DNA of 64,000 nt from Diabrotica undecimpunctata (taxonomy: Eukaryota > Arthropoda > Insecta > Coleoptera > Chrysomelidae), in assembly GCF_040954645.1 (NCBI RefSeq), contig NC_092811.1:120797411-120861410 (forward strand), given 5' to 3'. Shown piece by piece: positions 7,738-59,592 of this stretch. Below the pieces are notes generated by a model. That model ran no database searches and was not told the DNA's origin. It worked only from the letters and a program-made list of their open reading frames with translations. The translations under genes and the position numbers were made by a program. The first letter of the stretch is position 1; each line of letters opens with the position of its first letter.

Positions 7738-7848
7738 CCAATGGATATCGACCGCGGTTCAACCCGGAAGACTGGTGAGTTTAATATTAGTTTTTATAAT
7801 TATTAATTATTTTAAAATTTTTATAAGTATTAATCTTAGCTTTAGGTT

Positions 7849-8470
<622 letters not shown>

Positions 8471-9483: not shown

Positions 9484-10075
9484 TGTGATATTAAAAGTCA
9501 GAGATGCACCAAGCAATTATTTAGCTAATTAATTAATTAAATTAAACAAGGCGAACAAGACTGTTCGCCTTGCACCCTTGGAAAACAACTGATGATCTTT
9601 TTTTCCTCTAAAATCTAGCTAAACTCTCCTTCATCCATCTCTCCCACTTTTTTTCACTCTTTGCCAATCAAAGTTCGTCTTATTTATCCCCATTTAGATA
9701 ACAAACAACAAACTTAACTACAATTATAACTTTCCTAAAAACTATTAACATGTTAATCGTTTCTACAAATTCTTAAGAACTAACGGAGAAATATAATTTT
9801 AAATTCTACCCTATTGTCTTTATTCACTGTACAAGTCCATTTGGAAAACCCGGTCGTATTGTTCAATTCACTACGTTCACTGAAATATATTTTACAAAGA
9901 AAATAATTTATGCATATCTTAAATTTTGTTTACTAAGGTAATCCAAAGATAATGGACTTTTATTTCTTTGAAATATCGTTTATAGTTTATCAGTTGAAAT
10001 ATTTTAAATGATTATATTTTATAATTTGCAATATATTACGAGCAAACCAATATTATTTTTAATTTTACATAGCAT

Positions 10076-10080
<5 letters not shown>
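9484..10080 (-). repeat. Gypsy LTR with internal deletion (block B)
   Basis: It begins TGTGATATTAAAAGTCAGAG, as at 10454. After about 60 bp it jumps to sequence corresponding to 11250-11750. It is therefore the same LTR as block C lacking about 700 bp. Confidence 0.7.

Positions 10081-10133
<53 letters not shown>
10081..10133. repeat. (TA)n microsatellite
   Basis: Pure TA array at the distal edge of LTR block B. Confidence 0.97.
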
Positions 10134-10135
<2 letters not shown>

Positions 10136-10402
10136 ATTCTATGGTTACTCTAAAATGAGACGTTACTGTCCTAAATCGATTGAAAAGTCATTTCGGGGAA
10201 AACATCCATCATGCATATTTTCATGTTTTTATTATTGCTTATTTTCAGGTGTGTACAACTCTGCGAGTAATTTTAAACACGCGAAATGTTTTGAAAACAT
10301 TTTTATGCAAACGCATCCTGCGTTTGTTTGTTGAAATAACACATTAGGTAAATATGTTTTAAAATAATTTCTTCCGCTTAAATATTTTGATTTATTTATT
10401 CG

Positions 10403-10406
<4 letters not shown>
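10134..10406. other. Non-coding spacer between two (TA)n arrays
   Basis: Open frames crossing this spacer are dominated by Ile-Tyr runs from the flanking arrays and are not genes. Confidence 0.6.

Positions 10407-10452
<46 letters not shown>
10407..10452. repeat. (TA)n microsatellite
   Basis: Pure TA array abutting the TG end of LTR block C. Confidence 0.97.
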
Positions 10453-10453
<1 letters not shown>

Positions 10454-10454
<1 letters not shown>

Positions 10455-11757
10455 GTGATATTAAAAGTCAGAGGTGCACCAAGCAATTAATTAGCTAATT
10501 AATTAATTAATTAAACTTATTTAAATGATGCAATTATGATTTTATCACACTATTTAATTCTCTTATCTCAGGGATATATTCGTGCTTCAATATCTATGCT
10601 TTACATATGATAGGTAAGGTCTAAAGAATACCGGAATAATAAAAAACATATGTGATACAACATTATATATTGAAATAAAATTCACACTCAAATATCTTCA
10701 ACAAAAAATATCTCATATAATGATTATCAAAATTTTGTTCTACGTACGTGAACCTTCAAAACTTAATGTTATATACAATATAAATTAAAATTTTAAATTA
10801 AAATTGTTGTTCTAAATCTAATGTTCAAAATATTTCTATCTTTTCTAAAGCAATTAAAAAAAAAACTTTGTCAATAAATAAAAACTGACTAATGTAAAAA
10901 AAACTATCTCTCGGATGATGAGTTGTCCAAATCCTTGTTCCTTGTAGCCTACACTATCTATTCTTAGCAGTTCCCTAGGTAATCAGCAATCTTTCAACAA
11001 ATTATTGCGAGCCTCTCGTCTTTAATGATCTCCTTCAAATGCACGTATCGTTCAAAAGATGCTTGCCTCTTCTCCTCTCGATAAACTGAATCTCTCGTTC
11101 CGGCCTGAGCAGTGACTCTTGGAATATATAAGTAGAAAAGTATACCTTACAATATTTTACTGGATCAGCTTCCGTCAGATACACTAACTCCAAGAAAACT
11201 CACAAACATTCACTTCTAGTGCTTACTATCACTTGGGAACCACCAGAGAACAACGACTGTTCGCTTTGTACCCTTGGACAACAACTGATTATCTTTTTTC
11301 CCTCAAAAAACTAGCTAAACTCTCATTCCTACATACCTATCCCACTTTTCCTCAATCTCCTCCAATCAGAGTTCGTCACACTTATCCCCATCTACCATTT
11401 AGATAACAAACAAAAATTTTACCTACAATTATAAATTTCCTAAAAACTATTAACATGCTAATCGGTTTCTACAAATTCTTAAGAACTAACGGAGAAATAT
11501 ACTTTCTAAATATTCTATCCTATTGTCTTATTCACTGTACAAGTCCATTTGGAAAACCCGCTCGCATTGTTCACGTCACTCGAATATATTTTACAAAGAA
11601 AATATTTTATGCATATCTTAAATTTTGTTTACTACAGGTCATCCAGGATAATCGACTTTCATTTCTTCAAAATATCTTTTATAGCTTATTAGTTGAATTA
11701 TTATATTTTGTACTTTGAAATATTTTAAGAGCAAACTAATATTATTTTCAACAATAT
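10454..11757 (-). repeat. Most complete copy of the decayed gypsy LTR (block C, solo-LTR-like)
   Basis: About 1.3 kb from TGTGATATTAAAAGTCAGAG to the next (TA)n array. Its proximal half matches block A and its distal half matches block B, so it shows the full order of the LTR. No internal gypsy sequence adjoins it, so it looks like a solo LTR. Orientation is taken from the integrase fragment at 8492-9060. Confidence 0.65.
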
Positions 11758-11810
<53 letters not shown>

Positions 11811-11811
11811 G

Positions 11812-11866
<55 letters not shown>
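11758..11866. repeat. (TA)n microsatellite with two short interruptions
   Basis: TA array interrupted by a short GTATATATAGATATG-type segment near 11802-11818. Confidence 0.95.
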
Positions 11867-11870
<4 letters not shown>

Positions 11871-13237: not shown

Positions 13238-14985
13238 TTTTCTTCTTTGGGTGCCGTGTCCGTATTCAGACGTTGGCCGTCATCATGTTTACAATTTCCT
13301 GAAACCTTTCTCTGTCGGCTGCTGCGCGAAATAATTCTTCTACTGTGGAACCACATCATTGTCTATATTACGCAGTCATGAAAGTTTCTTTCGACCAATC
13401 CATCTTATTCCTTCCACTTTTCCTTGTATTATAAGGCGAAGTAGATGGTATTTATTTCCTCTAATTATATGGCCGAAGTATTCTGTTTTTCTCCTCTTTA
13501 TGGTGTTTATGAGCAGACGTTCTGAATTGATTATTTGAAGAACATCTTCATTGGACGTGTGCGAAACCCACGATATCTTTAGGATTCGTCTATAGCACCA
13601 CAATTCGAATGCTTCTAACTTGTTTAGCATTGTAGTTTTTAACGTCCATGTCTCACAACCATACAATAGGATGGACCACACATAACATTTCAGGACCTTC
13701 TTACGAAGATTCATCGACAGATTTCTGTTGCATAAAACTGGTTTCCAGGTCATAAAAGCCTTACGTGATATTTGGATCCTGGTTATTATCTCTTCATCAG
13801 AGTCACAATTTACATTTAACCAGCTGCCAAGGTATTTGAAATGATTTACCCTTTCGATCTTCTCTCCATTAAGAGAAATTAGACCTTGATCTATATTGAT
13901 CTTTCCAACTTCCATACACTTTGTCTCTGAAATGTTGATTTTAAGGCCTCTCCGATAACTTGCTTCACTGACTAGATTTAGTAGTGTTTGGAGGTCTTGT
14001 AAATATTCTGCAAGAATGGCTGTATCGTCAGCGTATCTAATATTGTTGATTACTTCTCCACCTAGTCTTACTCCCTCTTGTCTGTCATCCAAAGCCTCCC
14101 TAAAGATTTCTTCAGAGTACAGATTAAAAAGAGTGGGTGACAAAACACAACCCTGCCGTACTCCGCGTTTGATGGATATTTTTTCAGTCGTACTGTCTTC
14201 AATTTGTATAGAGGCTACTTGATTGTAATATAAGTATTTTAGCACTCTTATATCATAGTGGTCAAGTCCTACTGCCCGTAGGCAATCGAAAAGTGTATCG
14301 TGTTGTACTCGTTCGAACGCCTTCTCGAAGTCGATGAAACAAACATAAACATTCTTTCGGAATTCATAACTTTTTTGTAATAGAACGCGCATACAGAATA
14401 GTGCCTCTCTAGTTCCTAGACCGTTTCTAAATCCAAATTGCTTATTACCCATCCTACTTTCGCATAGAAGGAATACTCGGTTTTGTATAATTCGTAAGAG
14501 TATCTTCAGTGTGTGACTCATCAAACTGATTAGTCTAAAATCGCTGCATTTGGTGGGCCTACTTTTCTTTGGTAATGTTATAAACAGTGACTCTAACCAA
14601 TCATCTGGTATTTTTCCTTCGTTGTAAATTTTGTTGAAGAAAGGTTAAGCAGGCAATTCTTTCCTCATCCAAAAGTTTAAGTAGCTCAGCAGGGATTTGA
14701 TCTGGTCCAGGTGCTTTATTGTTTTTGGCTTGCTGTATTGCCTTTGGAAGTAAAAAGACTTCCGAATTCAGTATACTGGGACCTCTGTCTGTCACAGGCA
14801 GTATTTGGAGCATTTTCTCTAGAAGCATCGTCAAAAAGGTCAGTGATGTATCTCTCCCATTCTTTGCACTGTTGTTCGTGATCACAAATTTTTCCGTCCT
14901 CGCTTTTAAGTATTTGAACATTTTTCTGTTTTCTAATTCCGGCAGTATATTTAAGTTTCTTGTGGAGGTTGAAACTGTCATGCTT
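13238..14985 (-). pseudogene. RTE-like LINE, reverse transcriptase region, frameshifted
   Basis: A 5'-truncated endonuclease/reverse-transcriptase ORF. The first part (14981-14601) is the linker before the RT with KAPGPDQIPAELLK. A frameshift near 14640 leads into the RT frame (14524-13376) with FGFRNGLGTREA, FIDFEKAFERVQHDTL, RRGVRQGCVLSP-like box (IKRGVRQGCVLSPTLFNLY), RYADDTAIL (catalytic YADD), YLGSWL and the thumb motif LLYGCETWTL. After the stop at 13376 the tail is still recognisable but shifted. The catalytic boxes are intact, yet frameshifts and the missing endonuclease make it non-autonomous. Confidence 0.85.
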
Positions 14986-19392: not shown

Positions 19393-21122
19393 CAGGGTTG
19401 TCCAACTTGCAATGCCTTAAGGGCCAAAACTAAAACCTTTGATGTTGTCGCGGGCCATATAATAATTTTGTTACAAGTAATAACAAAATAAAGTGAGGTA
19501 TAAAAATAATTAAAACAAAAAAGAGTATTATTTCTTTTATTGCTCAACAACTACATTTTTATATAAACGGAAAATTTATTGATAACACTTTTCAATAATC
19601 AAGAGAAACATTGCAAAAGCAACGAAAAAGATGTATCCAATTAGTGTGAGGACTGTGGTCGATCGGCTTCATCCACCAATGAAAAAATGTCCACATCCAG
19701 TTCAGTTGTAGACACTCTCATAAGATGACGTAAGGAAGAATCGGTAAGGTTGCTTCTGTTTTTATTTTTTATGTATTTCATGGAGGAAAAGGCACTTTCA
19801 CATGTATATGTGCTTCCGAACATTGACGTCATTTTCAGTCCAAAATCTCGCAGGTTTGGGAATTTCTCCTTTAACAGTAATTTGAAAAATTCAGGTCCCT
19901 CTTCTTGTCTAGTGATTAGGAACATGTCTGCTTGAAGATCACATAACTCAAGCTGTAAGTTGGGTGGTTGATCATCAATGGTTGCTCCAAGAGGGTTATT
20001 ATAAAGTAGTACACTGCTTTTGAGACTTTCAATTTCTTCAAATCTTATATTGAATTCATCAATAACTTGTTCAATTTGTGAAATACAGGATGAAAACTCA
20101 ATATTTTTCTCACCGTTGAATTCTTCTGCTATTTGCAGACAGCTAGGGAAGTGTGTCAGGTTGTTCTTTTCCAAAGCACGTTTAAACACGTTCAGCTTAT
20201 TCCGGAATCCGTTTATCATTCCGATCAAATCTGAAACCGTCTGGTTTCTTTCTTGAAGACTTAAGTTTAACATGTTAAGATGATTAGTCAGATCTGTTAT
20301 AAAAGCTAACTGTCTTAAGAATTCTGGATCCTTAAACTTCTCTTCCAGTTCAGTTGTGTCAGATGAAACGTATTTGTTGAGGAATGCAGGGATTTCCTTT
20401 CTTATGGCAAAAAATCGTTCCATGCACTTTCCTGCATTCAGCCACCTTACATGGTTGTACATTAGCAAGTCTCCATACTCAGCCTCTGTTTCCACTAAAA
20501 ACTGCTTATGTTGCCTGTGTAAAAGAGATCGATTTCCACCTCTAATCATATTTATAATCTTAATCACGGTTTGGAAAACTTGATCTTCCTTGACTGATTT
20601 TCCACATAAAGCTCCCTGATGTATAATACAATGAATTGTTGGGCAAGTGACACCATTCTCTCGAAGCAGACCCACTAATCCAATTTTTTTACCTGTCATT
20701 GATGGGGCCCCGTCTGTTGCTATGGCTGAACATTTATCAAAGCCTCCAATTCTGTCAACTGTTTTCTTCACAGCCTCATAGATGTCTTTTCCTTTTGTTG
20801 TTCCATAAAGAGGACAAATATGAAATAACTCCTCTTTACTGGTAAAATCATCAAAAGTAGTGCGCACAAATATTAACAGCTGACTAACATCGGTTTAATC
20901 AGTGCTTTCATCCAAACAAAGTGAGAAATATGAACTTTTCTAACCAGGCTAAGCATAGATTTTTCTACTTGCTCACCCATAGCAACAATCCTTCTTTGTA
21001 TGGTTTGATGTGAAAGTGGCACTGATTCAAATTTCTCCGCCATTTTAGAATCACCGAAACCTTTGGCCATTTCAACAGCACATTTTTTTATCAAATTCAA
21101 AAAGTTACAGCTATCCTATATA
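19393..21122 (-). pseudogene. hAT transposase, GTF2IRD2/ZBED-like, broken
   Basis: The main open frame (20867-19641, 408 codons) contains the hAT catalytic region (CSAIATDGAPSMTGKK, then HCIIHQGALCGK, the conserved HC block), VRWLNAGKCMERFF and a C-terminal dimerisation segment (TYTCESAFSSMKYIKNKNRS). Upstream, 21100-20873 is the same protein in another frame. A frameshift near 20940-20960 and an in-frame stop next to CLDEST break it. The 3' terminus CAGGGTTGTCCAACTTGC at 19393 looks like a hAT end. The matching 5' terminus is absent, so the copy is 5'-truncated. Its best relatives are the Charlie-type transposases that gave rise to vertebrate GTF2IRD2-like genes. Confidence 0.85.
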
Positions 21123-24735: not shown

Positions 24736-25862
24736 CTTCTTCTTATTCTTCATGTGTCGAGCTCGATTATCGAGCGTTGGCTCTCAAATTTGCTATAGTA
24801 ATTTTGTTGACGGCAGCTCAAAAAAGAGATGCAGAGGATCTGTTAAACCAATCTCTCAGGTTTCTAAGCCATGACGTTCTTCTTCGACCTGGCCCTCTTC
24901 TTCCGTCTACCTTGCCTTGAATTATTAAATGGAGTATATTATATCTCTCTGGGTGGTGCATAACATGGCCAAAATATTCAAGTTTGCAATTTTTAACTGT
25001 TTTGACGACTTCCTTAACTTATTCCATCCGATGCAAAACAACTTCGTTACGAACTTTATCCACCCAACTTATTCGTAGGATTCTCCGATACACCCAGATT
25101 TCAAAGGCTTCCAGTTTCTTGAGAAGTGTATCCGTCAAAGTCCAACCTTCGACACCATACAAAATAGTAGAGAACACATAATATCTCACTAATCTAATTT
25201 TCAGACTTAAAGTAATATTGTTTCCACATAACAGTTTCTTCATCTTAAAGAATGCAGCTCTGGCCTTCTCTATCCGTATTCTAATTTCTTTGCTCATGTC
25301 CCAGTTCTCATTTAGATTACAACCAAGGTAAGTGATACTGTTAGTTCTCTCCAGTTGTTCACCATAAGCTGATACCACTTCCGGTTGTGTTGGCGTTTTA
25401 CTGACGACCATCACCTTTGTCTTTGCGGTGTTTAGCTTGAGGCCATATCCATCACACGTTGTGGTAATCCTATTAATTAGATGTTGAAGTTCTTCGTAAT
25501 TGCTTGCAATTAACACTGTGTCATCCGCATATCTCAAATTATTAATATTGACGCCATTCATTTTTATACCACATTGAACATTATCCACTGCTTTATTGAA
25601 AACGAACTCAGAATAGATGTTAAATAGTAGCGGATACAAAATGCAGCCCTGCCTTACTCCTCTTCGTATTTGAAGCTCTTCAGAAGTGTCCCGGCCAATC
25701 CTGATGTTTGCACGTTGATGTCAGTAAAGATTTTTAATAATGCGTAGGTCTTTATCATCAATACCTACCTGCTGAAGAATAGCTATCATTTCAGTATGTT
25801 TTACTCGATCAAAGGCCTTCTCAAAGTCAATAAATATGGTTGTAAACTGATTTTGTTTACAA
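24736..25862 (-). pseudogene. RTE-like LINE, RT and 3' tail, truncated
   Basis: The RT begins at the finger motif FIDFEKAFDRVKH (near 25830). It continues with RRGVRQGCIL (25650), the catalytic RYADDTVLI (near 25530), YLGCNLNENW, LYGVEGWTL, FGHVMHHPERYN and GRRGPGRRRTSWLRNLRDWF to a tail ending in AAGAA repeats. A longest open stretch runs 25639-25019; stops and shifts lie on either side. The 5' half is missing, as is usual after target-primed reverse transcription. Confidence 0.85.
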
Positions 25863-27115
25863 CCCTGTAATTTTCAAAATAGTATATTTCCCTTTGTTCA
25901 TAACTATACTCCACCCTGTATGCCAAGACGCCCTATTCATTCCATCAATAAACTCTAACGGTACTTACTAAATCATGTTAAAAATGACCTGTCCCCGACA
26001 TCGGCGACAGTCCAAAACCCTGGTCTATTAGAAACTCTCGCGGAAGTACCCACCAGGTTGTGTTACCTATAATACGTAGAGAAATAAAAGTTAGTTGTAA
26101 GTTACTAGTATTCTTTAAGTACCATAAACAATTAAAATAATACAGTCCACTTAAAACCCCAGAGAATACCGGCGGTATAAGTTAGTAAAAGATTGAAAGC
26201 ACGTGGAATCATACATAATTCCTCCTTAAACGCCGGTATTTTCTCCAAAATAGCTTCAGAATAATAAATTAATGGGGATGATGATGCCCTTTATATCAGA
26301 CACGTTTTTTTATACGCTTGTTTTTCTGTTTTTTAATTAGTACTTATATAATTCATTATTACTGTTAAATTGATTAATCAAGATATGATTATAAAAAAAA
26401 CTTCTATTGCTTATCTAGTTTCCATTTCATTCAACCATTAGCCGGAGAGTAAATTACTCTCATTGCTGACATCAGTTAAACACACCCGAATGAAATTATC
26501 GCCATAATTCCTAAACGTTTCTTTAAATGTTCCTCCCAGTTGGCTCTATTTTTAAGATTGCTGTCGATTACAAGACATCGGGGATGCTGTGACCGAGCAG
26601 GACAGGTCTCTCCTGAAACATTCCCCACGCTCCTGTAGATCCGCGCGGTATTAGCTGCGAGCGACTATCGGCCCTGAATCCATCGTAGCGCGCCAGGAAA
26701 TTTAATTTTGTCATCTTGTTCTTTTTCCAGACGAGATTATATCGCGATTTCTACTTTTTGCTTTATTATGTCAGTAATAAGGGAACCAGCAGCGTGTAAT
26801 GGCGTAGGACATAAACGATAGATGTTCCTAGTTTATAGGAACATAATTGTTTTAATAAAGATCCGATTATAGTGTCATGGGCGATTATAGAGTGCTTATT
26901 TTGTACAGTTTTGATATATTTAAAAATTAAAAAGCATTAGACACCATATTTTTATTATTTCTACTCTTACTTTGTCAGTACCGTAGTTTGGGGCTCAATT
27001 GATGCTTTTATTTTTTATTTTGGACGTAAAATCTAAAAGTTCTATTAATTGTTTTGGTGGCCAAAGCTGTTTTTTGTGTTTTTTGTAGATTTTTTAAGGG
27101 CTGTCGGAAACATAT
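25863..27115. other. Non-coding region, partly of higher complexity
   Basis: A CACCCTGTAT motif lies near 25912. Between about 26440 and 26830 base composition is more even and I find no match to any repeat in this window. This could be ordinary host non-coding DNA. No open frame of note. Confidence 0.5.
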
Positions 27116-27514
27116 TGTTACGATAAATATATACTGGCCTAAATATATGATGACTAATAATTCTGTTTTGTTGTAGAAATTTGGCGAAGGATCTAGGTTC
27201 AAATTATGGTGAATCCTCCAAAACTAGATGCTTCTCGATTTTTCGATGCAAGACAATGCGATCTTTCGATGCTGTTCTAGTATATCAGGATTTCGTATAT
27301 AAATACAACATTTTTATATGGAGGGCCAGTTAATTCTCAAGATTCGCGCTCGCGATATTGTTGTTACGCTCGCCTACTAATAAATTATGTATATTTAGTG
27401 ATAAATAAACTTATATAAATTATCGTGCCTTTTAATAAATTAAAGTAGGAACAATATAATAAATTAGTAAAGACATTATAAATTAAAGACATAACAATTA
27501 ATAAATTCACAACA
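27116..27514 (+). repeat. 5' LTR
   Basis: Begins TGTTACGATAAATATA and ends CACAACA. Contains a TATA-box candidate at about 27296-27304 and an AATAAA-type signal in GATAAATAAAC near 27400-27410, in the order promoter then poly(A) signal expected for a U3-R-U5 LTR. Confidence 0.95.
27296..27304 (+). promoter_or_regulatory. Candidate TATA box of the gypsy LTR
   Basis: TATATAAAT about 100 bp upstream of the candidate poly(A) signal. Repeated at the equivalent place in the 3' LTR. Position is the only evidence. Confidence 0.4.
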
Positions 27515-27516
27515 AA

Positions 27517-27534
27517 TGGTGTCAGAGTGAGATC
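27517..27534 (+). other. Primer-binding site
   Basis: TGGTGTCAGAGTGAGATC starts two bases after the 5' LTR. The TGG start is expected for pairing with a tRNA CCA end. Which tRNA is not determined. Confidence 0.7.
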
Positions 27535-27590
27535 GAACATAAATTAGACTTATAATAATAATACAAGTGAATATAAAATAAATTGTGAAA

Positions 27591-28859
27591 ATGGCTACGA
27601 TTTATGAGCTGACAGTGACTAATTTAAGAAGACATCTTGAAGACAGAGAATTAGCTTCTACCGGAAAAAAGGCTGAGTTAGTCCAACGACTAAAGAACGC
27701 TTTGCTAGAAGAAGGACTAGATCCAGAGACTTATATATTTGAAGATGCTGTCCTCTCGTCGATTTCGAAAGTTTCCTCTGATGTAGCCAAAGTTTCCGGC
27801 GACATCGCATCATTGGAGAACAAAGTTTCTGGCGATATTTCGAAAGTTTCTGGTGACATCGCATCATTAGACAACAAAGTTTCTAACGAGATTTCGTCTC
27901 TGGAAAGTAAAGTTTCTGCTAACATCTCTAAAGTAACTTCTGAGATGTCTGCCCTCGACGATAGAATGTCTTCGCTAAAAAACCAAGTTGCTGCCGATAT
28001 GTCGGCCTTCGAAGAAAAGATTAAAGAGATGGAAAGGAAGATGGAGGAAACAGGGACAGCAGAGAGAGGAAACAATCCAATTACAGTGGAGATAAAAGAA
28101 GACGAGACGAAATGTAAGTTGGAGACACGGCCGAAATTTGAAGGAAGTGGAGGTTCTATTCATGTTAAAGTCCCAACTTTCGACGGAAAATCATCATGGA
28201 ACAACTACTTGAAACAGTTCGAATCAGCCGCAAGAGCGAATGGATGGTCTGAAAAAGAAAAGGCTGTAAACCTGACTATCGCTCTTCGAGGAGATGCCTT
28301 AGATGTGCTTCAGACCATAGCCGTAGAGGAGACCGATGATTTCGAACAACTGAAGAAGAGGTTAAATATGCGATATGGCCACGAACATTTGGAGCATGTA
28401 TATCAGTCGCAGCTTAAAAATCGTAGACAGAAGAAAGATGAGGCTCTTCAAGAATATGAGGTAGATATTGCCAGATTAGTACGATATGCTTATCCAACAG
28501 CTCCCGAAGACATGATGGAAAAATTGGCCGTTCAAACGTTTATTGATGGTCTTCGTGATCATGAAATGCAGAGAACACTGCGATTAGCTCGTCACAAAAC
28601 GCTGGTTGATGTCTTATCCGCCGCCCTCGAATACGAGTCAGCTACGCAGGCCTCTGGCGGGTACAGTAAAGTTAGAACTGTAAAAGAGGAAGGAGATGAA
28701 GATAAACTTGACCAGCTCGTTAATATGATAAAAAGCATGACATACAAGAAAACGAAGACCATCAGATGCTGGAATTGTGGCGAAATAGGACACGTACGAA
28801 GCTCCTGTAAGCACCCTAGGTACGACGCAAATCAAGAAACTCACCATCAGGAAAACTAG
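27591..28859 (+). CDS. Gag polyprotein with SAP motif, coiled coil and CCHC zinc knuckle
   Basis: Structural protein that would package the element's RNA. I chose the ATG at 27591, the first ATG of the frame, giving 422 residues. Residues about 5-45 (ELTVTNLRRHLEDRELASTG, then KKAELVQRLKNALLEEGLD) match the helix-turn-helix pattern of a SAP DNA/RNA-binding motif. Residues 60-150 are a coiled coil of repeated units such as KVSGDIASLENKVS. A retrotransposon capsid region follows (about 195-345, FDGKSSWNNYLKQFE, LKNRRQKKDEALQEYE, TFIDGLRDHEM). Near the C-terminus CWNCGEIGHVRSSC is a CCHC zinc knuckle whose spacing (C-x2-C-x4-H-x4-C) is canonical. The frame is intact. It overlaps the pol frame by 40 bp. 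Confidence 0.93.
   Translation: MATIYELTVTNLRRHLEDRELASTGKKAELVQRLKNALLEEGLDPETYIFEDAVLSSISKVSSDVAKVSGDIASLENKVSGDISKVSGDIASLDNKVSNEISSLESKVSANISKVTSEMSALDDRMSSLKNQVAADMSAFEEKIKEMERKMEETGTAERGNNPITVEIKEDETKCKLETRPKFEGSGGSIHVKVPTFDGKSSWNNYLKQFESAARANGWSEKEKAVNLTIALRGDALDVLQTIAVEETDDFEQLKKRLNMRYGHEHLEHVYQSQLKNRRQKKDEALQEYEVDIARLVRYAYPTAPEDMMEKLAVQTFIDGLRDHEMQRTLRLARHKTLVDVLSAALEYESATQASGGYSKVRTVKEEGDEDKLDQLVNMIKSMTYKKTKTIRCWNCGEIGHVRSSCKHPRYDANQETHHQEN
28820..28859 (+). promoter_or_regulatory. Gag-pol overlap where a -1 frameshift would occur
   Basis: The pol frame is the gag frame minus one and becomes open only after a stop at 28817-28819, while gag ends at 28857-28859. Any translational shift must lie in this 40-nt window. 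GGAAAAC just before the gag stop is the best slip candidate but is not a canonical XXXYYYZ heptamer. Confidence 0.5.
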
Positions 28860-31800
28860 AACGGGTCAGCCTTAGGGGGGCAGCTTCGACCCAGAACTTT
28901 TCCAAAGACCCTCTCATACTAATAGCTTCTTTGAAATGTCGTGAAGATAGTGTATATGTCGATGGAGACATAAATGGTAAAAAGCATACGTTGTTGGTGG
29001 ATACCGGAGCGACCAGAACCATTATACGCCCGACAGTTATAAACAGCCGAAAGAAACTGTTACCAACGAGGTTGCGACTTCGGACCGCTACAGGTGAAAA
29101 TGCTAACATTCATGGAGAAATCCAGGTACAATTGGGAATTGGAGCAGAAAAGTTCGTCCATACTGTTATAGTTGCTGACATCGAAGAGGATGTTATATTA
29201 GGAATGGACGTAATGAATATGCATGGATTCCAATTGGATTTTAAGAATAAGGTAATCAAAGTTGGCAACGAGGAGGTATTTCTCCATCCACATAATGACA
29301 ACACTGTGCAAGCAGCCATTACAGAAGATACAGTCGTGCCTGCGAGAAGCGAAACGATCATAGTAGCGCGGCTACAGGGATTTGTGGACGAAGGGAGACC
29401 TGTTATGATGGAGCCTTGGAACCACGACGATGAGGTTGGCCGTGGAATCATAATTGGAAAGGAATTGGTGACTTCGGCTAAGGAAATTCCTGTGAGACTT
29501 ATCAATGTCAACGACTACCCAGTGACCATAAAGAAAGAGACAAAAGTAGGAACTTGTGTACCTGTGACATCCATAATCCGTCAGGCGACAACATCTGATA
29601 ATTCCAACGACAAATTCGACCAAATGGTTGCAGTTGCAGGACAGTCTCTAAATCAGATGGAGAAAAGGAAATTAAGGGAATTTCTGCGGCAGTATCGTGA
29701 TATTTTCGTACCGAAAGGAGGAAAGACGGGAAGAACTACCGTTGTTAAGCATAAAATTGATACTGGTAATGCTAAGCCAATTCGTCAAACAGCTCGACGA
29801 TTACCACAGGCGAAGAGAGAGGAAGCTGAAACGATTGTTCAGGAAATGAAGAAAGACGGGGTGATAGAACCTTCTACGAGCCCATGGGTCTCTCCGGTGG
29901 TCCTGGTTAAGAAGAAAGACGGAACGACGAGGTTCTGTGTGGATTACCGTTTGCTGAACAACGTTACCAAGAAAGATAGTTATCCTCTGCCTCGGATCGA
30001 TGACACATTGGACACATTGGCTGGAAGTAAATTGTTTTCTACTTTAGATTTGAAGTCTGGATACTGGCAGGTAGAAATGGACCCAGTCGATAAAGAAAAG
30101 ACAGCCTTCACCACAGGATCTGGATTGTGGCAATTCAACGTTATGCCATTTGGACTTTGTAATGCTCCTGCGACATTTGAGAGGCTTATGGAAAATGTGT
30201 TGAGAGGGTTATCTTGGAAAACATGCCTGGTTTATTTAGATGACATAATCGTCTTGGGGGAGACATTCGAAGATCATTTGAGGAATTTAGAAAACGTTTT
30301 TAATCGACTTAAAGCTGCCCAATTGATGCTAAACCCCAAGAAGTGCCAGCTATTTCAAGGTAAAGTCAATTATCTGGGTCATATAGTCAGTAAAGAAGGA
30401 GTGGCCGTGGATAAGGGAAAAATCGATTCCATTAAGGAATGGCCAAAACCAACTGACAAACATCAAGTGAGAAGTTTTCTTGGACTATGTACTTACTACC
30501 GGAGGTTTATTAAGAAGTTTGCAGATATCGCTAAGCCATTAACGCGACTTACAGAGGAAGCAAGAGAATACCGCTGGGATATAGACTGCCAAAATGCCTT
30601 TGAAACGTTGAAAAAGCATTTAATAACAGCACCAATTTTGGGGTATCCACTGCCAGAAGGAGAGTTCATCTTAGATACGGATGCAAGTAATGTGGGAATT
30701 GGAGGAGTGCTGTCTCAGATTCAAGGAGGACAGGAACGAGTCCTCGGATATTTTAGTAAAGTTCTTTCAAAACCTGAGCGGAATTATTGCGTCACGAGAA
30801 GAGAACTTCTAGCAGTAGTTAAATCAGTAGAGCACTTCTATCAATACATCTATGGCAGAAAGTTTCTAATCCGAACCGACCATGCCGCCCTTAAGTGGTT
30901 GATGCAGTTTAAGAATCCAGAGGGTCAGATAGCCAGGTGGATCGAACGACTCCAAGAATACGATTTTAAGATTGAGCACCGGGCCGGAGTTAGCCACAGA
31001 AATGCTGATTCTCTTTCCAGAAGGCCATGCTCAGCAGAGTGTTCCCACTGCAACAAAACGGAATCCAAGGAAGCAGCAGTGCTAAGAACGACGATTGTCA
31101 ACAACGACTGGACGCCTACTAAGATCAGGGAAGAACAAGAGAGAGATCCAGTTATACAAAAAATCCGAAAATGGAAAGAGGAAAACCGTCGACCACCTTG
31201 GCAGGAAATATCAAACCTATGCTCAGTAGTTAAGACGTATTGGGCCCAGTGGGACTCATTTATCATCGAAGATGGCTTGCTTAAACGAGTCCTGGAAAAT
31301 GATGACGGTTCAGAGAAGAGAAGACAGTTGGTGATCCCAAAGAGCAGAATAGCCGAAGTACTTCGTCAGTTACACGACAGTCTATCGGGAGGGCATTTTG
31401 GTGTAAGGAAAACCCTTCAGCGAATTCGGGAACGGTTTTATTGGATGAACAGTTCCGACGACGTAAAAGACTGGTGTAAGAAATGTACTATTTGTGCTAC
31501 GAGTAACGGGCCTCACCGAAAAAGGAGAGCTCCTATGAGACAATATAATATTGGAAGCCCGTTTGAAAGAATAGCTTTGGACATCGCTGGGCCATTTCCA
31601 GAAAGTGAAAGTGGAGGCAAGTACATGCTGGTAGTAATGGATTACTTTACTAAGTGGGTCGAGATTTACGCACTTCCCGACCAGAAGGCCGCCACCGTTG
31701 CAGATAAGTTGATCCAAGAATATATCAGCCGATTTGGAGTGCCTTTGGAGATCCATAGTGACCAAGGCAGGAACTTCGAAAGTGATCTATTCCAAGGAAT

Positions 31801-31882
31801 ATGTGATAGACTAGGCATGAAGAAAACAAGAACTACCGCGTATCATCCGCAATCGGATGGTATGGTAGAAAGAAATAAATAG
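28820..31882 (+). CDS. Pol: protease, reverse transcriptase, RNase H, integrase (terminated after the DDE glutamate)
   Basis: Polyprotein frame with no AUG of its own near the start, so expression by frameshift from gag is likely. Aspartic protease: LLVDTGATRTII (about 28990-29030). RT: FCVDYRLLNN, GYWQVEMD, AFTTGSGLWQFNVMPFGL and catalytic YLDDIIVL (about 30233). RNase H: DTDASNVGIGG (about 30674). Integrase: HHCC zinc finger from HDSLSGGHFG to WCKKCTIC (31374-31500), then DIAGPFP, HSDQGRNFE and HPQSDGMVER, a D-D-35-E arrangement by my count. All catalytic residues I can identify are present. Right after the glutamate, an apparent one-base insertion in the A-rich run near 31873-31880 brings in a stop; the rest of the integrase continues in another frame from about 31883. 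It may be a real mutation or a sequencing error. Confidence 0.93.
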   Translation, partial: VRRKSRNSPSGKLERVSLRGAASTQNFSKDPLILIASLKCREDSVYVDGDINGKKHTLLVDTGATRTIIRPTVINSRKKLLPTRLRLRTATGENANIHGEIQVQLGIGAEKFVHTVIVADIEEDVILGMDVMNMHGFQLDFKNKVIKVGNEEVFLHPHNDNTVQAAITEDTVVPARSETIIVARLQGFVDEGRPVMMEPWNHDDEVGRGIIIGKELVTSAKEIPVRLINVNDYPVTIKKETKVGTCVPVTSIIRQATTSDNSNDKFDQMVAVAGQSLNQMEKRKLREFLRQYRDIFVPKGGKTGRTTVVKHKIDTGNAKPIRQTARRLPQAKREEAETIVQEMKKDGVIEPSTSPWVSPVVLVKKKDGTTRFCVDYRLLNNVTKKDSYPLPRIDDTLDTLAGSKLFSTLDLKSGYWQVEMDPVDKEKTAFTTGSGLWQFNVMPFGLCNAPATFERLMENVLRGLSWKTCLVYLDDIIVLGETFEDHLRNLENVFNRLKAAQLMLNPKKCQLFQGKVNYLGHIVSKEGVAVDKGKIDSIKEWPKPTDKHQVRSFLGLCTYYRRFIKKFADIAKPLTRLTEEAREYRWDIDCQNAFETLKKHLITAPILGYPLPEGEFILDTDASNVGIGGVLSQIQGGQERVLGYFSKVLSKPERNYCVTRRELLAVVKSVEHFYQYIYGRKFLIRTDHAALKWLMQFKNPEGQIARWIERLQEYDFKIEHRAGVSHRNADSLSRRPCSAECSHCNKTESKEAAVLRTTIVNNDWTPTKIREEQERDPVIQKIRKWKEENRRPPWQEISNLCSVVKTYWAQWDSFIIEDGLLKRVLENDDGSEKRRQLVIPKSRIAEVLRQLHDSLSGGHFGVRKTLQRIRERFYWMNSSDDVKDWCKKCTICATSNGPHRKRRAPMRQYNIGSPFERIALDIAGPFPESESGGKYMLVVMDYFTKWVEIYALPDQKAATVADKLIQEYISRFGVPLEIHSDQGRNFESDLFQGICDRLGMKKTRTTAYHPQSDGMVERNK

Positions 31883-31898
31883 GACAGTTGGCAAGTAT

Positions 31899-33089
31899 TT
31901 GACAAAGATGGTGTCCGATCATCAGCGAGACTGGGACCAATACCTTCCGTTCTTCACAATGGCCTACAGATCTGCTGTTAACGAATCAACGGGCCAGACA
32001 CCAGCCAGAGTCCTATTCGGACGCGAAATGCGACTACCTTGTGATCTAGAATTTGGGTGTCGACCTGGAGAAGATGTAGCAGGTGAAGATTATGTGATCG
32101 AATTACGAAGAAGAATGGACGATGTACATGAGTTGGTCCGTTCCCACCTTCAGATCGCTAGCGACCGAATGAAGAAACGGTACGATACACAAGCCGAAAA
32201 GGGTTGCTTTAAGAAGAACGACAAAGTATGGCTGTATAATCCCAAGAAGCGAAAAGGTTGTTCTCCCAAATTGCAGCAGCTTTGGGAAGGTCCATACCTC
32301 ATCATGGAGAGGATCAACGATGTCATCTACCGAATAAGCAAGATTCCGAGGGGAAAGCCGATGATAGTACACCATAATCGGCTGGCGTCTTTCGAAGGTG
32401 ACCACGACGTAGATGAAGAAGTGGAAGTAAACCAAGTCCAAGACGTGTCTGACCTCACGTTTGAGGAATTCATGGGTGCCTATGGAGGTACCGGTAAAGC
32501 AAGACATGGTGTTACCACTGAAGAAAAGCAAGATCTACTCGCGCTCCCCGATGACTACTCGCTGGCCCTTACCATCCCGGCCAGTATCAAAGACGCACCA
32601 GGGTTGGCATCCGTCTTTCGAAGGAAGTTTGGTCGAGTTGCAGAACTTCAATGCCAGGTGCCAGCTCCCGGTAAAACCTTGAAACTCCAAGATGCATCAC
32701 GTTACCTTTTCTACCTGGTAACAAAAGACACTGCCCGTGACCAACCTACCTACCGAGATGTGTGGGAAGCCTTACTTCAATTGAGAGAGCACGTACTAGA
32801 GTCCGACGTGCAAAAGTTAGCCATGCCAAAGTTGGAGTGCCGCCAATTAGATTGGAGGGTTATCCGAAATATGGTGGAGGAGATCTTCAAAGACACCGAA
32901 GTCCAGGTGTTAGTCTGTTGCAATCCGCTAAGTACCTTGTGCGGAGAGAAAACCGTCCCTTGTCATTTTTATACAACTGGAAGTTGTAAAAGAGGGTCCA
33001 GTTGCCGATACCAGCATACAGTTCCGGTTCCAGTCCCGACAAGGTTCCAGGAGGAACCATCTTTTAAGAGGGGGGCAATGTTACGATAA
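31899..33089 (+). CDS. Integrase C-terminus fused to OARD1/TARG1-like macrodomain and CCCH zinc finger
   Basis: Continues pol in a shifted frame. Residues 1-100 complete the integrase core end (FTMAYRSAVNESTGQTPARV); about 105-165 is a GPY/F module (WEGPYLIMERIND). Residues about 205-345 (32511-32933) are not part of normal gypsy integrases. They match the macrodomain of the ADP-ribose-ester hydrolase OARD1/TARG1: GLASVFRRKFGRVAEL, the strand RYLFYLVTK, PTYRDVWEALLQLREH, KLAMPKLEC and LDWRVIRNMVEEIF. From memory of TARG1, its catalytic lysine aligns with the K of YLVTK (present); the GCGLD loop carrying the aspartate is replaced by ECRQLD, so hydrolase activity is doubtful and ADP-ribose binding is more likely. 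Residues 355-373 are a CCCH finger, C-x7-C-x5-C-x3-H. The frame ends 9 bp before the 3' LTR region's polypurine tract ends, and its last codons overlap that tract. Confidence 0.88.
   Translation: MTKMVSDHQRDWDQYLPFFTMAYRSAVNESTGQTPARVLFGREMRLPCDLEFGCRPGEDVAGEDYVIELRRRMDDVHELVRSHLQIASDRMKKRYDTQAEKGCFKKNDKVWLYNPKKRKGCSPKLQQLWEGPYLIMERINDVIYRISKIPRGKPMIVHHNRLASFEGDHDVDEEVEVNQVQDVSDLTFEEFMGAYGGTGKARHGVTTEEKQDLLALPDDYSLALTIPASIKDAPGLASVFRRKFGRVAELQCQVPAPGKTLKLQDASRYLFYLVTKDTARDQPTYRDVWEALLQLREHVLESDVQKLAMPKLECRQLDWRVIRNMVEEIFKDTEVQVLVCCNPLSTLCGEKTVPCHFYTTGSCKRGSSCRYQHTVPVPVPTRFQEEPSFKRGAMLR
32511..32933 (+). other. Macrodomain (ADP-ribose-binding) module within the gypsy pol
   Basis: Sub-region entry. 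The order of motifs (loop with G and KKFG-like RRKFGRV, central strand RYLFYLVTK, helix with PTY, then AMPKLE and the terminal strand VQVLVC) follows the OARD1-type macrodomain over about 140 residues. Assigned by recall of the family, not by a search. Confidence 0.82.
32961..33017 (+). other. CCCH zinc finger at the pol C-terminus
   Basis: CHFYTTGSCKRGSSCRYQH fits C-x7-C-x5-C-x3-H, the RNA-binding finger of ZAP/Tis11/U2AF35-type proteins. It follows the macrodomain by about 15 residues. Confidence 0.85.
33066..33078 (+). other. Polypurine tract
   Basis: AAGAGGGGGGCAA directly before the 3' LTR TG. This is the plus-strand primer for reverse transcription. Confidence 0.85.
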
Positions 33090-33477
33090 ATATATACTGG
33101 CCTAAATATATGATGACTAATAATTCTGTTTTGTTGTAGAAATTTGGCGAAGGATCTAGGTTCAAATTATGGTGAATCCTCCAAAACTAGATGCTTCTCG
33201 ATTTTTCGATGCAAGACAATGCGATCTTTCGATGCTGTTCTAGTATATCAGGATTTCGTATATAAATACAACATTTTTATATGGAGGGCCAGTTAATTCT
33301 CAAGATTCGCGCTCGCGATATTGTTGTTACGCTCGCCTACTAATAAATTATGTATATTTAGTGATAAATAAACTTATATAAATTATCGTGCCTTTTAATA
33401 AATTAAAGTAGGAACAATATAATAAATTAGTAAAGACATTATAAATTAAAGACATAACAATTAATAAATTCACAACA
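33079..33477 (+). repeat. 3' LTR
   Basis: 399 bp. No difference from the 5' LTR seen on direct reading. Followed by the ATAT target duplication. Confidence 0.95.
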
Positions 33478-33659
33478 ATATAAAATCAGCATTAGTAAAT
33501 ACAGTGCCATGCCAAAGGTGAGCACGTTTCCTTCTTTGGATAGAGCTACGATTATCTAGTTTTATTATATGTTTGCTAATGTTTGATGTTTGGGTTTTCT
33601 GTACTTCTATCTATAGTACGCATCATATATTAATATCTCTCGCAGGATCAGGTTTGGAT

Positions 33660-35264: not shown

Positions 35265-35344
35265 AAGCACGTGGTGTTCGTGTGTATTAAGGTATAAAAA
35301 AAAATTGCTTATTACAAGCTTAAATTTTTATTTTAAGAAGATCT

Positions 35345-35372
35345 TTTCGGAATTAAATCATTCCATCATCAG
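35345..35372 (-). ncRNA. Hammerhead-ribozyme-like core, left arm
   Basis: On the minus strand CTGATGA, one T, a GGAAT/ATTCC stem with a 6-nt loop, then GAAA. This is the conserved hammerhead core apart from the extra T before stem II. Stems I and III are not demonstrated. Confidence 0.4.
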
Positions 35373-35845
35373 TTAAATAAAAAGTTGTTAAAAAACATTG
35401 TATGGCCACTTAAAAAAAACTTTCGAAGGACATCCGTATTAAAATATAATCCTCATGGTTTTATCAAGGTAAATGAAATAGACTTAACTTATTGATTATT
35501 AAAAACTGAAGATGGGGGCATCTTACATGACCCCCTGTAGCTGGTGAAGTTTTTTCGACTTACATTACCTCTGATCTGTTCTGGAGTCTTGGGCTAACTG
35601 AGGGCTAACTGGGCTCTCAGTTAGCCCAAGACTCCAGAACAGATCAGAGGTAATGTAAGTCGAAAAAACTTCACCAGCTACAGGGGGTCATGTAAGATGC
35701 CCCCATCTTCAGTTTTTAATAATCAATAAGTTAAGTCTATTGCATTTACCTTGATGAAACCATGAGGATTATATTTTAATACGGATGTCCTTCGAAAGTT
35801 TTTTTTAAGTGGCCATACAATGTTTTTTAACAACTTTTTATTTAA

Positions 35846-35873
35846 CTGATGATGGAATGATTTAATTCCGAAA
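35846..35873 (+). ncRNA. Hammerhead-ribozyme-like core, right arm
   Basis: Mirror copy of 35345-35372 on the plus strand: CTGATGA at 35846-35852, stem GGAAT/ATTCC, GAAA at 35870-35873. Confidence 0.4.
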
Positions 35874-36022
35874 AGATCTTCTTAAAATAAAAATTTAAGC
35901 TTGTAATAAGCAATTTTTTTTATACCTTAATACACACGAACACCACGTGCTTTGTATTCAACAGGTATACTAGCCACTCCTGGATATTTCCACTTCATGG
36001 TTTGTTCCAGTTTCACTTTTAA

Positions 36023-39829: not shown

Positions 39830-42060
39830 TGCCGTTTGAATTTTAAGGTACGATCTAGTTCTTCTTCTTTTGGTGTCCATTCTCTGTGGATGTTGGCAAT
39901 CACGTTGGTCCATACAACTATGTTGACAGCTACTCTAAATAGATGTATGGTAGTCATTCCTGCCCACTGTCTGATGTTCTTCAACCACGATGTCCTTCTG
40001 TGCCCTTGAGATATTTTGCCTACTATCTTGCCTTGTAAAATTAGTTGAATTAGTTGATACTACTCATTGCGCATCACATGCCCTAAGTATCTTTCTGATT
40101 TTCACGATACGCATAATTTCCAGATTTTTATTCATACGTTGGATTGGTATTGTTTGTAACATGATGGATATAGGTAATTCTGAGCATGCGGCGGTAGCAC
40201 TACATTTCAAAGGCTTCTAAACGTTTGGATGTTGCCTCCGTCAAGGTTCAGGGTTCGACTCCATATAAAAGGGATAGAAAATACATAGCATCTCAAGACT
40301 CGTGTTCTTATATCAATGTTCAGGTGCATATTGCACGTTGGTCCATACAACTTTGTTGACAGCTGCTCTAAATAGATGTATGGTAGTCATTCCTGCCTAC
40401 TGTCTGACCAGTTCTTCAACCACGATGTCCTTCTGCGCCTTTGTGATCCTTTGCCTTCTATCTTGCCTTGTAAAATTAGTTAAATTAGTTGATACTTCCC
40501 ATTGCGCATCACATGCCTTAAGTATGTCTTCTTTCTTATTTTTACGATAGGCATAATTTCCAGATCTTTATTCATACGTTAGATCACGGTGTTGTTTGTA
40601 ACATGATGGATATAGGAAATTCTGTGCATGAGGCGGTAGCACCACATTTCGAAGGCTTCTAATCGTTTGGACGTTGCCTCCGTCAAGGTCCAGGCTTCGA
40701 CTTCATATAAAAGGGTAGAAAATACATAGCATCCCAAGACTCGTGTTCTTATATCAATGTTCAGGTGCATATTACATAAAATCTTCCTGAGGCGATTGAA
40801 GACAGTTCTCGCCTTTTCTATACGACATCTTATTTCCTGTGAGTGGTCCCATTTCTTATTTAGGCTGCATCCAAGGTATGTAATTTTGTCGATTATTTTC
40901 AAGGGTTCATTATTAGCTGTGAATTGGTGCTGTATTACGTCGTTTTTACTTGCTACAAGAATTTTGGTCTTCTTACAGTTTAATTTCATGGTGTATCTGT
41001 CATAGGCTTCCACTACACGATCTTTTAATGTCTGCAAATCCTCCGCATTATCAGCAATCAAAACCGTATCGTCCGCATATCTTAAATTGTTTATGATTCC
41101 ACCATTGATTTTTATACCTTCTCTTAAACCATCAATAGCTTCCCTGAACAGCATTTCCGAGTAAGTATTGAACAACGTCGGTGATAAAATGCAGCTCTGA
41201 CGTACTCCCCGTTTTATCGTGAATTCTTGTAATGTTTCGTTGTCCACTCGTACAGTTGCCCTTTGTTGTAAGTATAAATTATTAATTGGGCGTTTAATTA
41301 TCTCTGTCATCAATACTAGATTCTTTTAGTATCTGAAATAATGTTTGATGTTGCTCCTTGGTTCTTTTGCTTGGACTGGTTCTTTTTTGGGTATATTAGC
41401 GACGTTACTGTTTTATAACTGGTACATCTCTTCCACATGCGGTTCCATCGCATGTTGGCATATACACTTGTAGTACATGGATCTTTGTTGGCTGTTTAGC
41501 GACAGTAATTTTAATTAGGCGGTCATTTATTGGAAGGTATTCATATACACATTTTGCCAGGTTCTTCTGTACCAGTATTGCTACGCCTTTTTGACCGGTT
41601 TTGTTGGCTCCCAACATGAATATTTTATAGTAGTTAGATTCCCAGTGACCCTGACCTTCCCAGTGGGTTTCTGAAACTCCACATCTGTCTACTTTTTCTC
41701 TCATAAGCTCTTGTTCTAAGATATGTAGTTTTCCTGGTTCTAACAAACCTCTAACGTTCGATGTGGCTATACGATGTTTTGTACGTAGTTTTATTTTTGG
41801 GTTTTCAGTCACCAATTTCGCAGATGTAGCCTGGTTACCCACATTCATCTGCCCGGTCATCCATTTCACACCCGTCGACCTGGATTCGACGTGGCGCTGG
41901 TTGCTTGCTGGATCGCATAGCACTCTGTTACTTTCGTTTGTCATTTCATAACGTGCTCTGGAATATGTAATCAAGTGGTTTTCCGTTTGCTGCTTGATCC
42001 TTATGCCGTTAACACATTGTTGATTCATCCGCCTTAGGAGCCGACTTCTCAACTCCCGGG
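39830..42060 (-). pseudogene. RTE-like LINE with endonuclease-RT deletion and duplicated 3' end
   Basis: 5' part (42052-41405): N-terminus then endonuclease (RIATSNVRGLLEPGKLHIL, VSETHWEGQGHW, GVAILVQKNL, LQVYMPT). It stops there and the sequence jumps to the RT at about 41370, so some 400 codons are deleted. RT (41313-40579): RPINNLYLQQRATVRV, GVRQSCILSPTLFN (S where G is usual), LRYADDTVLIA, YLGCSLNKKW, LYEVEAWTL and FEMWCYRLMHRISYI. The 3' region is present twice: 40340-40780 in frame with the RT, and again at 39888-40332. It ends with a TCTTCTTCTT (AAGAAGAAGA) tail near 39860. Confidence 0.85.
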
Positions 42061-48150: not shown

Positions 48151-49845
<1,695 letters not shown>

Positions 49846-51779: not shown

Positions 51780-53555
51780 TGGGTTCTGGACAACTGGAAG
51801 GAAATAGAAGAATATGATAGAAAGTACGATAGCTTTAACATGCATAAAAAGATCAAGGAAATAACAGGTAAAAAAGTGAAACAAGCATCCATAGTAAAGG
51901 ACAAAAAAGGTAAAATAATTACAGATTTAAATGAAAAACTCGCAAGATGGACAGAATACATTGAAAAACTTTTTGCAGACGAAAGACCAGAAATAGCAGT
52001 GGCAGAACCTACAGACGACACAACAGGGCCTGAAATCCTAAAAAGCGAGGTAAAATATGCTATAAGGAACACAAAAGAGTGTAAAGCTGCAGGACCAGAT
52101 GAAACTCCTGTAGAATTGTTGAAACTAATAGACGACGACGCACTTGAAATAATGGTAAACCTCTTTAACACAATTTATAGAACAGGCATCATACCAAAGA
52201 AATGGCTCTCCTCTACTTTTGTCACAATCCCAAAGACGAATAACGCCAGAGAGTGTTCAGACCACAGAACTATAGCATTGATAAGCCACACACTAAAAGT
52301 ATTTTTAAAAATAATTCACAAAAGAATATTTAATAAATTAGAAGAGGACATAAGCGCCACACAGTTTGGATTCAGAGGTGGACTGGGAACACGAGAATCT
52401 TTGTTTGGTCTGAGTGTGATAATGCAAAGATGTTTGGATGTAAACCAAGACCTCTACGTAGGTTTCATAGATTTTGAGAAGGCCTTTGATAAAGTCAGAC
52501 ACCAAACGCTGTATGAAATCCTAAGAAGCAAAAACATCGACAGTCGCGACATTAACATCATATCCAGGTTGTACTGGGGACATACAGCAAAAATTAAAGT
52601 TGATATTAAGTTAACCGAAGAAATTGAGATTCGTCGAGGTGTGCGTCAGGGTTGTGTGCTTTCTCCACTATTATTCAATATATATAGTGAAACAATATGT
52701 CAGGAAGCGCTCCTAAAGCAAAACATTGGTATGAACATTAACGGAGAGTTAATTAACAATATACGATATGCTGATGACACGCTACTAGTAACAGATAACC
52801 TAGCAAATTTACAGTTTTTGATGGAAAACATAAACACCCATACCAATAAGTATGGTCTAAAACTGAACATCAAAAGGACTAAATTCATGATTTTAACAAA
52901 GAAGTTATACACCAATGTGAATTTAACCATAAATAATCAACCAGTTGAAAGAGTTACGTCCTACAAATATTTAGGGGTTTGCTTCACTGATACTAATGAC
53001 CAGACAAGAGAAATCAAGAGGCGAATAGAGATAGCGAGACAATCGTTTGTCAAAATGAAAAAGTTCCTATGCAGCCGGGACATAAATATAAACTGAAGAA
53101 CGAGAATGTTAATGTGCTATGTTTTCTCCGTTCTGCTGTACGGAATGGAAGCCTGGACACTGAAAAAGGTAAACATCAAAATCATTAGGGCATTCGAGAT
53201 GTGGTGTTACAGGAGAATGTGGAAAATACCATGGACAGAAAGAGTAACAAATCAAGATGTTCTGCTGAAAACGGGGAAGGAATGAGAAGTTATAAAAACC
53301 ATACAAACGAAAAAACTGGAATATCTGGGACACATAATGAGAGGAGAAAAGTACTCTCTGCTTAAACTCATAATCCAAGGAAAAATCTCGGGAAAGAGAA
53401 ATGTGGGACGTAGGAGGATTTCCTGGTTGCGAAATTTAAGGGAGTGGTATGGATGCAGTTCAATACAGTTGTTCAGAGCTGCAGCCAACAAAGTAAAGAT
53501 TGCTGTGATGGTAGCCAACCTCCGATAGGAGACGGTACTACAAGAAGAAGACTTC
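51780..53555 (+). pseudogene. RTE-like LINE, near-intact RT, 5'-truncated
   Basis: The best preserved RTE-like copy. The frame is open from the truncation point (VLDNWKEIEEYD) through the linker (KAAGPDETPVELLK, with A where PGPD is usual), the RT (SDHRTIALISHTLKV, QFGFRGGLGTRES, GFIDFEKAFDKVRHQ, RRGVRQGCVLSPLLFNIY, RYADDTLLV, YLGVCFTD) to a TGA at 53094-53096. It then continues in the same frame (MLMCYVFSVLLYGMEAWTL, FEMWCYRRMWKIPW) to a second TGA near 53283, and on through YLGHIMRGEKYSLLK and GRRRISWLRNLREW to VANLR, stop. Two in-frame stops are its main visible damage. Ends in AAGAAGAAG near 53550. Confidence 0.88.
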
Positions 53556-55153: not shown

Positions 55154-55225
55154 TCCTCGGTAGTATAGTAGTCAGTATCCCCGCCTGTCACGCGGGAGAC
55201 CGGGGTTTGATTCCCAGTCGGGGAG
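55154..55225 (+). tRNA. tRNA-Asp(GTC)-like gene, probable pseudogene
   Basis: 72 nt folding as a cloverleaf: acceptor TCCTCGG with TCGGGGA, anticodon stem CCCGC/GCGGG with loop CTGTCAC (anticodon GTC at 55187-55189), T-arm CGGGG-TTTGATT-CCCAG. A TTTTTT Pol III terminator lies at 55229-55234. Three conserved positions look altered compared with eukaryotic tRNA-Asp: GTAGTC instead of GTGGTC in the D-loop (G18), TTTGATT instead of TTCGATT (C56), and a mismatch in the T-stem. G18 and C56 hold the D and T loops together, so function is doubtful. It also alters the B box (GGTTTGATTCC). Confidence 0.85.
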
Positions 55226-59585: not shown

Positions 59586-59592
59586 TGATAAT

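Follow-up and report, generated by a model that had tools for sequence, protein, structure and literature searches.

The window analysed here, a stretch of 64,000 nucleotides from Diabrotica undecimpunctata (NC_092811.1, positions 120,797,411 to 120,861,410 of the forward strand), contains an LTR retrotransposon at positions 27116-33477, with the following features:

27112..27115, target-site duplication ATAT, preceding the 5' LTR
27116..27514, + strand, 5' LTR (TG...CA)
27585..28859, + strand, gag with SAP domain, repetitive coiled-coil-like stretch, Retrotrans_gag and CCHC knuckle (Pfam: SAP 8e-7, Retrotrans_gag 6e-8, zf-CCHC 2e-4)
28931..31882, + strand, pol part 1 with aspartic protease, reverse transcriptase, RNase H, and integrase zinc-binding domain and core (Pfam)
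31899..32397, + strand, pol part 2 with the remaining integrase and its C-terminal module (PF22938 over residues 131-163; alignment)
32460..32516, + strand, conserved pre-motif FEEFMGAYGGTGKARHGVT ahead of the macrodomain (alignments; a short helix, residues 188-198, in the predicted structure)
32508..32924, + strand, TARG1/OARD1-like macrodomain, with the Lys84 equivalent kept (FYLVTK) and the Asp125/GxG loop absent (PKLEC--RQLDW)
32961..33017, + strand, CCCH zinc finger CHFYTTGSCKRGSSCRYQH (PF00642, E 1.9e-6)
33066..33078, + strand, polypurine tract, within the reading frame (sequence)
33079..33477, + strand, 3' LTR, followed by ATAT at 33478-33481
33087..33089, + strand, stop codon of the 31899-33089 frame, lying in the 3' LTR

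The paired LTRs, which are identical over 400 bases (block 27116-27515 against 33079-33478), the target-site duplication, the polypurine tract and the Pfam domain order protease-reverse transcriptase-RNase H-integrase identify the element as Ty3/gypsy-type; the matches in pol part 1 were RVT_1 (1e-38), RT_RNaseH (2.5e-34), Integrase_H2C2 (4e-21), rve (3e-13) and gag-asp_proteas (3.5e-11). Gag and pol lie in different frames in this copy, and the SAP domain is N-terminal in gag, followed by the repetitive coiled-coil-like stretch (27585-28075). Pol is interrupted by a frame break in the integrase core near 31882, and the frame that follows (31899-33089, 396 residues, P0001) encodes the integrase remainder and its C-terminal module and then approximately 230 extra residues. 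The Pfam matches of the pol parts (E up to 0.01) included no chromodomain, nor was the macrodomain called by Pfam there; among solved structures, TARG1 was nearest to the window's macrodomain by both sequence and fold, and likewise to that of the relative P0130. A TARG1/OARD1-like macrodomain and a CCCH finger had both been proposed in an earlier sequence-only reading, and both hold: the macrodomain passed the structural comparison with solved TARG1, and the finger has the spacing C-x8-C-x5-C-x3-H and scored 28 bits against the PF00642 cut-off of 20.5. A closest kinship to viral macrodomains was rejected, given the proximity to TARG1.

Elsewhere in the window, RVT_1 matches mark other retroelement remnants at 13376-14524 (-), 25019-25639 (-), 40579-41313 (-), 51840-53096 (+) and 58361-59656 (-), while a hAT dimerisation region (19641-20867, -) and a DDE_3 match that falls short of its cut-off (62485-63147, +) are probably DNA-transposon remnants. 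Short-period repeat arrays of related sequence occur in both orientations (7779-8002, 10015-10509, 11677-11868, 48957-49108), a near-perfect foldback at 35297-35921 has 309-nt arms that are 99% complementary and separated by 7 nt, and a tRNA-Asp (gtc) gene lies at 55154-55225 (+).

The earlier assignment of the extra segment to the element itself proved correct, as its frame contains the polypurine tract and stops inside the 3' LTR, and as other copies share it. When P0001 was used as a query against the host genome, at least 105 copies (window included) matched over all 396 residues with 98-100% identity, and 104 of the 105 scored copies, which had been drawn from 11154 first-look candidates by ranking on protein similarity, were free of stops. 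A sample blind to the segment consisted of 40 scored matches (of 492 candidates) to 601 bases of the reverse transcriptase (RT), each 100% identical to the window and thus presumably young. The whole segment was present in one alignment in 34 of these 40 copies, and the 1401 bases retrieved contained part of it in the other six, of which five cover roughly half of the macrodomain or more, L129 being the sole copy with none of it. That the segment is host DNA next to the element, an assembly chimera or an isolated aberrant copy has a practically negligible probability: nothing was found in its favor, and against it stand the LTR on either side, the many near-identical copies and the occurrence of the same integrase-macrodomain join in at least 29 database proteins; flanking DNA and a one-off copy were both rejected on the basis of the LTRs and the copies. 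An open frame of at least 1400 aa, with this segment at its end, was found in 77 of the 105 scored copies; the 36 frames of 1400-1500 aa probably represent pol alone, and the 41 of at least 1550 aa would, judging from their length, comprise gag and pol in one frame. The same genome harbors a second abundant family of macrodomain-bearing elements (L091-L117). It also contains, at L090 (C3:100934173-100934676), an uninterrupted 683-aa frame with a TARG1-type macrodomain, intact motifs and repeated stretches ahead of it; this frame contains no integrase and is probably the host's own TARG1-type gene.

Beyond this genome, the domain was found in the protein relatives P0002-P0005, of which P0002 from Diabrotica virgifera (87%) is the nearest named one, and in pieces in the chimeric predictions P0006 and P0007. 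In total 1136 Pol relatives were found, and 25 of the best 120, all within the best 29, match the macrodomain profile, so that the expected sharing of the segment extends from sister copies to related elements. The named hosts are insects, mostly beetles (Diabrotica, Callosobruchus and others), together with the leafhopper Macrosteles; two sequences (P0011, P0025) derive from short mildew contigs (Erysiphe pulchra) and are probably insect contamination. The status of 21 sequences as elements is based on integrase sequence in some and on tree place, pre-motif or finger in others. Scans of viral contigs with P0001 and P0010 returned no relative, and the genome-contig scan returned a single contig (L001) with an integrase relative, the match being confined to residues 1-169.

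In a pol tree from which the extra segment had been cut out beforehand (104 of 121 pol sequences retained), all 20 macrodomain pols of sufficient length (of 26) fell into one group of 25 with a support of 100. Three of the five other members (P0021, P0033, P0062) end before the module position, P0028 has seemingly lost the module through an apparent deletion that left end remnants, and P0037 carries only a short tail without it. A focused tree of 46 pols, which omitted the first four of these and took 26 of 84 module-free sequences, supported the group containing the macrodomain pols at 100/100; a single origin was not rejected (p-AU 0.42), and the macrodomain pols formed one side in 26% of bootstrap trees. 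P0037 lacks the module yet belongs to the supported group, so the capture may have preceded or followed its split. Likewise, 43 element macrodomains separated from 49 cellular ones (support 99/94) in a tree made after relabelling of the aphid sequence P0218, which in an earlier tree had been labelled as an element and fell among the cellular sequences, with the other 41 element sequences on one side (100/97). Taken together, the pol group, the p-AU value and the separation of element from cellular macrodomains make a single capture of a cellular TARG1/OARD1-type macrodomain the best supported history, in line with the host-like character ascribed to the module by the sequence-only reading. The CCCH finger was present in 28 of 34 element sequences running at least 45 residues beyond the macrodomain, a count that set aside 17 of 51 sequences with fewer than 45. 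Some of those set aside (P0018, P0025, P0026, P0034, P0036) reach an apparent natural end without a finger, and P0025, P0026, P0030, P0034, P0036 and P0141 keep the macrodomain and have another short terminal sequence in place of the finger, which suggests that in this sample the macrodomain outlasts the finger. We therefore consider it almost certain that the feature is the C-terminal Pol end of a Ty3/gypsy-type clade with a captured TARG1/OARD1-type macrodomain, usually followed by a CCCH finger.

The active site differs among these elements. In TARG1, Lys84 and Asp125 form the catalytic pair within the published pattern TKx(30,35)Px[IL]GxGxD (PMC6397177); residue 125 is printed as Glu125 in a passage of PMC7050489 and as D125 in PMC6397177, and the aligned sequence has Asp. 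Both dyad residues were found in 40 of 49 element sequences, counting database or window sequences that cover both loops (truncated P0019 and P0022 omitted). All seven members of the window's sublineage (P0001-P0005, P0008, P0013), one branch in the macrodomain tree (100/98), lack the pair, in contrast to 40 of the 42 sequences outside it that retain it. Lys84 itself is retained in 46 of 49 element sequences, including five of the seven, and its T-K context (FYLVTK) is present in every one of 89 sequences, which come from 88 of the 105 copies and include the window twice. In the window and its sublineage Asp125 and the GxG loop are missing, which places them outside the published pattern, whose exact form occurs in 24 of 51 element sequences (two of which are truncated before the loop) and in 95 of 102 other sequences, the chimeric P0006 and P0007 among them; the window's loop, PKLEC--RQLDW, is exact in 32 of 33 RT-selected copies. 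In the second family, Lys84 is replaced by Arg in 24/24 sequences (24 of 27 loci used), GxG reads GHA at 25 of the 26 readable loci, and Asp125 is replaced by Glu in L098, L099 and L103, indicating that the elements of this host do not in general retain catalysis. As the macrodomain tree places this family as the sister of the window's sublineage (99/77), active-site decay may have begun once in a common ancestor rather than twice. The TARG1 mutants G43E, I44E and G123E lose both ADP-ribose binding and activity (PMC5928194), and by analogy the window copy would be expected to have lost both; its macrodomain is very probably non-catalytic, and the ADP-ribose binding or removal envisaged for it by the sequence-only reading is not supported for this copy; in the wider clade, where most members have the dyad, it may still apply.

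These patterns bear on the possibility that the module counters host defence in the manner of viral macrodomains, removing the ADP-ribose that PARPs of the host attach to element proteins, RNA or cDNA. In its favor are the retention of the dyad outside the window's sublineage and the reported substrates of TARG1, which include ADP-ribosylated proteins and the ends of nucleic acids (PMC7050489) as well as thymidine-linked ADP-ribose in DNA (PMC8501950). However, neither the dyad-less sublineage nor the second family with its replaced lysine fits such an eraser, and the window family is nonetheless abundant and young, which makes this explanation unlikely.

Despite the loss of the loop, several observations point to continuing constraint. 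The median ratio of macrodomain distance to integrase C-terminal-module distance was 1.61 in seven dyad-less sequences versus 1.68 in 18 sequences with the dyad (P0011, P0031 and P0032 omitted from the latter), i.e. divergence was no faster after loop loss. Macrodomain variants shared among RT-selected copies (33 gapless sequences of 40) comprised seven synonymous and five nonsynonymous changes (p 0.009), and those shared among 24 second-family sequences 20 and 12 (p 2e-6), compared to an expected nonsynonymous share of about 77% (observed 5/12 and 12/32); these p values serve as guides only, since the numbers are modest and the copies related. Shared and singleton variants did not differ significantly (Fisher p 0.29), and singleton pN/pS in the macrodomain of the RT-selected copies was 0.51. 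The pN/pS of the 105 copies is biased by their ranking on protein similarity, a bias that the 40 RT-selected copies, the youngest, escape for this segment. The finger was identical in 33/33 RT-selected copies and unchanged in 85 of 89 sequences of the 88-copy set. The selection across copies that the earlier reading would have looked for is thus visible as a depletion of amino-acid changes among shared variants but not as a difference between shared and singleton ones, and we regard these as signs of purifying selection on the macrodomain. A functionless passenger, captured from a host and by now in decay, would account for the altered active sites of the window's sublineage and the second family; nevertheless, it is highly improbable, as the whole segment persists in most copies selected irrespective of it, amino-acid changes are depleted among shared variants, divergence did not accelerate, and elements with macrodomains that share only 45-59% identity with that of P0009 still retain the segment.

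We favor, at a probability of roughly 0.55, an explanation in which the captured module acts in the integrase complex and serves the window's sublineage as a pseudo-enzyme that binds a partner. As it is translated within the Pol end that contains integrase, the module would act in the integration or reverse-transcription complex; this location is suggested by its position, and action through the integrase complex, taken as a separate step, is put forward tentatively, at somewhat less than even odds. The ancestral module may have been an attached reader or eraser of ADP-ribose, given that the dyad is retained in most lineages sampled, and its attachment to integrase can be likened to that of the chromodomain on chromovirus integrase. 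RNA is also bound by TARG1, and in the same concentration range by the mutants G123E and G43E, which are deficient in ADP-ribose binding (PMC5928194). With the substrates of TARG1, this pocket-independent binding suggests that the ancestral module could have read or erased ADP-ribose at the integration complex, and it would leave an RNA- or protein-binding role to the window's lineage. The sublineage has lost the ADP-ribose loop and positive charge (mean macrodomain charge 0.1, -3 to +4, versus 4.8, 0 to +10, in 21 others) under apparently continued constraint on the fold, and its module is most likely a non-catalytic partner-binding unit, the fall in charge making a protein-binding version somewhat likelier than an RNA-binding one; charge was not lost in the second family (one locus computed, L096). 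An improbable alternative holds that macrodomain and finger bind element RNA or cDNA and that ADP-ribose is irrelevant: the RNA binding of the TARG1 mutants, the frequent presence of the finger and CPSF subunit 4 as the source of the nearest solved fingers would agree with it, whereas the low charge in the sublineage and the relatives that keep the macrodomain without the finger would not. A more far-reaching reading, to which we likewise assign a low probability, is that the integrase-attached macrodomain reads or erases ADP-ribosylation and thereby directs integration towards PARP-active chromatin and DNA ends or protects it there, and that two differently disabled families of one genome use it as a pseudo-enzyme for targeting or partner binding.

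The fixation of the domain to integrase ties LTR retrotransposons to ADP-ribose signalling through a link that is testable with a small isolated protein, and the clade offers a natural series in which the dyad is kept, the loop deleted, the catalytic lysine replaced or the finger lost. The clade also calls for caution with OARD1-like annotations in insects, since some of the proteins so named are fragments of these elements; P0142 from Leptinotarsa, for example, starts with integrase sequence. No macrodomain in a Ty3/gypsy element was described among the matches listed from the open-licence PMC literature, the main text of a survey of viral ADP-ribose systems (PMC9503650) contains none of the terms 'metavir', 'integrase', 'transpos' or 'TARG1', and passages of PMC8195603 proved unrelated to the question. 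The alphavirus and coronavirus macrodomains resemble that of the element in having a macro fold that is embedded in a viral polyprotein. Endogenous retroviruses of fish that contain ORFs for a macro-domain or CNPase (Basta et al., 2009, cited in PMC4977317) are likewise reverse-transcribing elements that carry a macrodomain; however, the ORFs are described there as additional ones in vertebrate retroviruses, and the citing passage does not mention the kind of macrodomain, an integrase fusion or a CCCH finger. From the TARG1/OARD1 (C6orf130) hydrolases the element domain differs by its fusion to Pol and its own branch in the tree, and the window copy further by the absence of Asp125 and the GxG loop, which puts it outside the published TARG1 pattern. 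Chromoviruses are Ty3/gypsy elements that likewise carry an extra module at the Pol end behind integrase (PMC3605345), but theirs is a chromodomain, which Pfam did not match in the pol parts of the window element, whereas in the clade of that element the module is a macrodomain of TARG1 type, in most cases followed by a CCCH finger.
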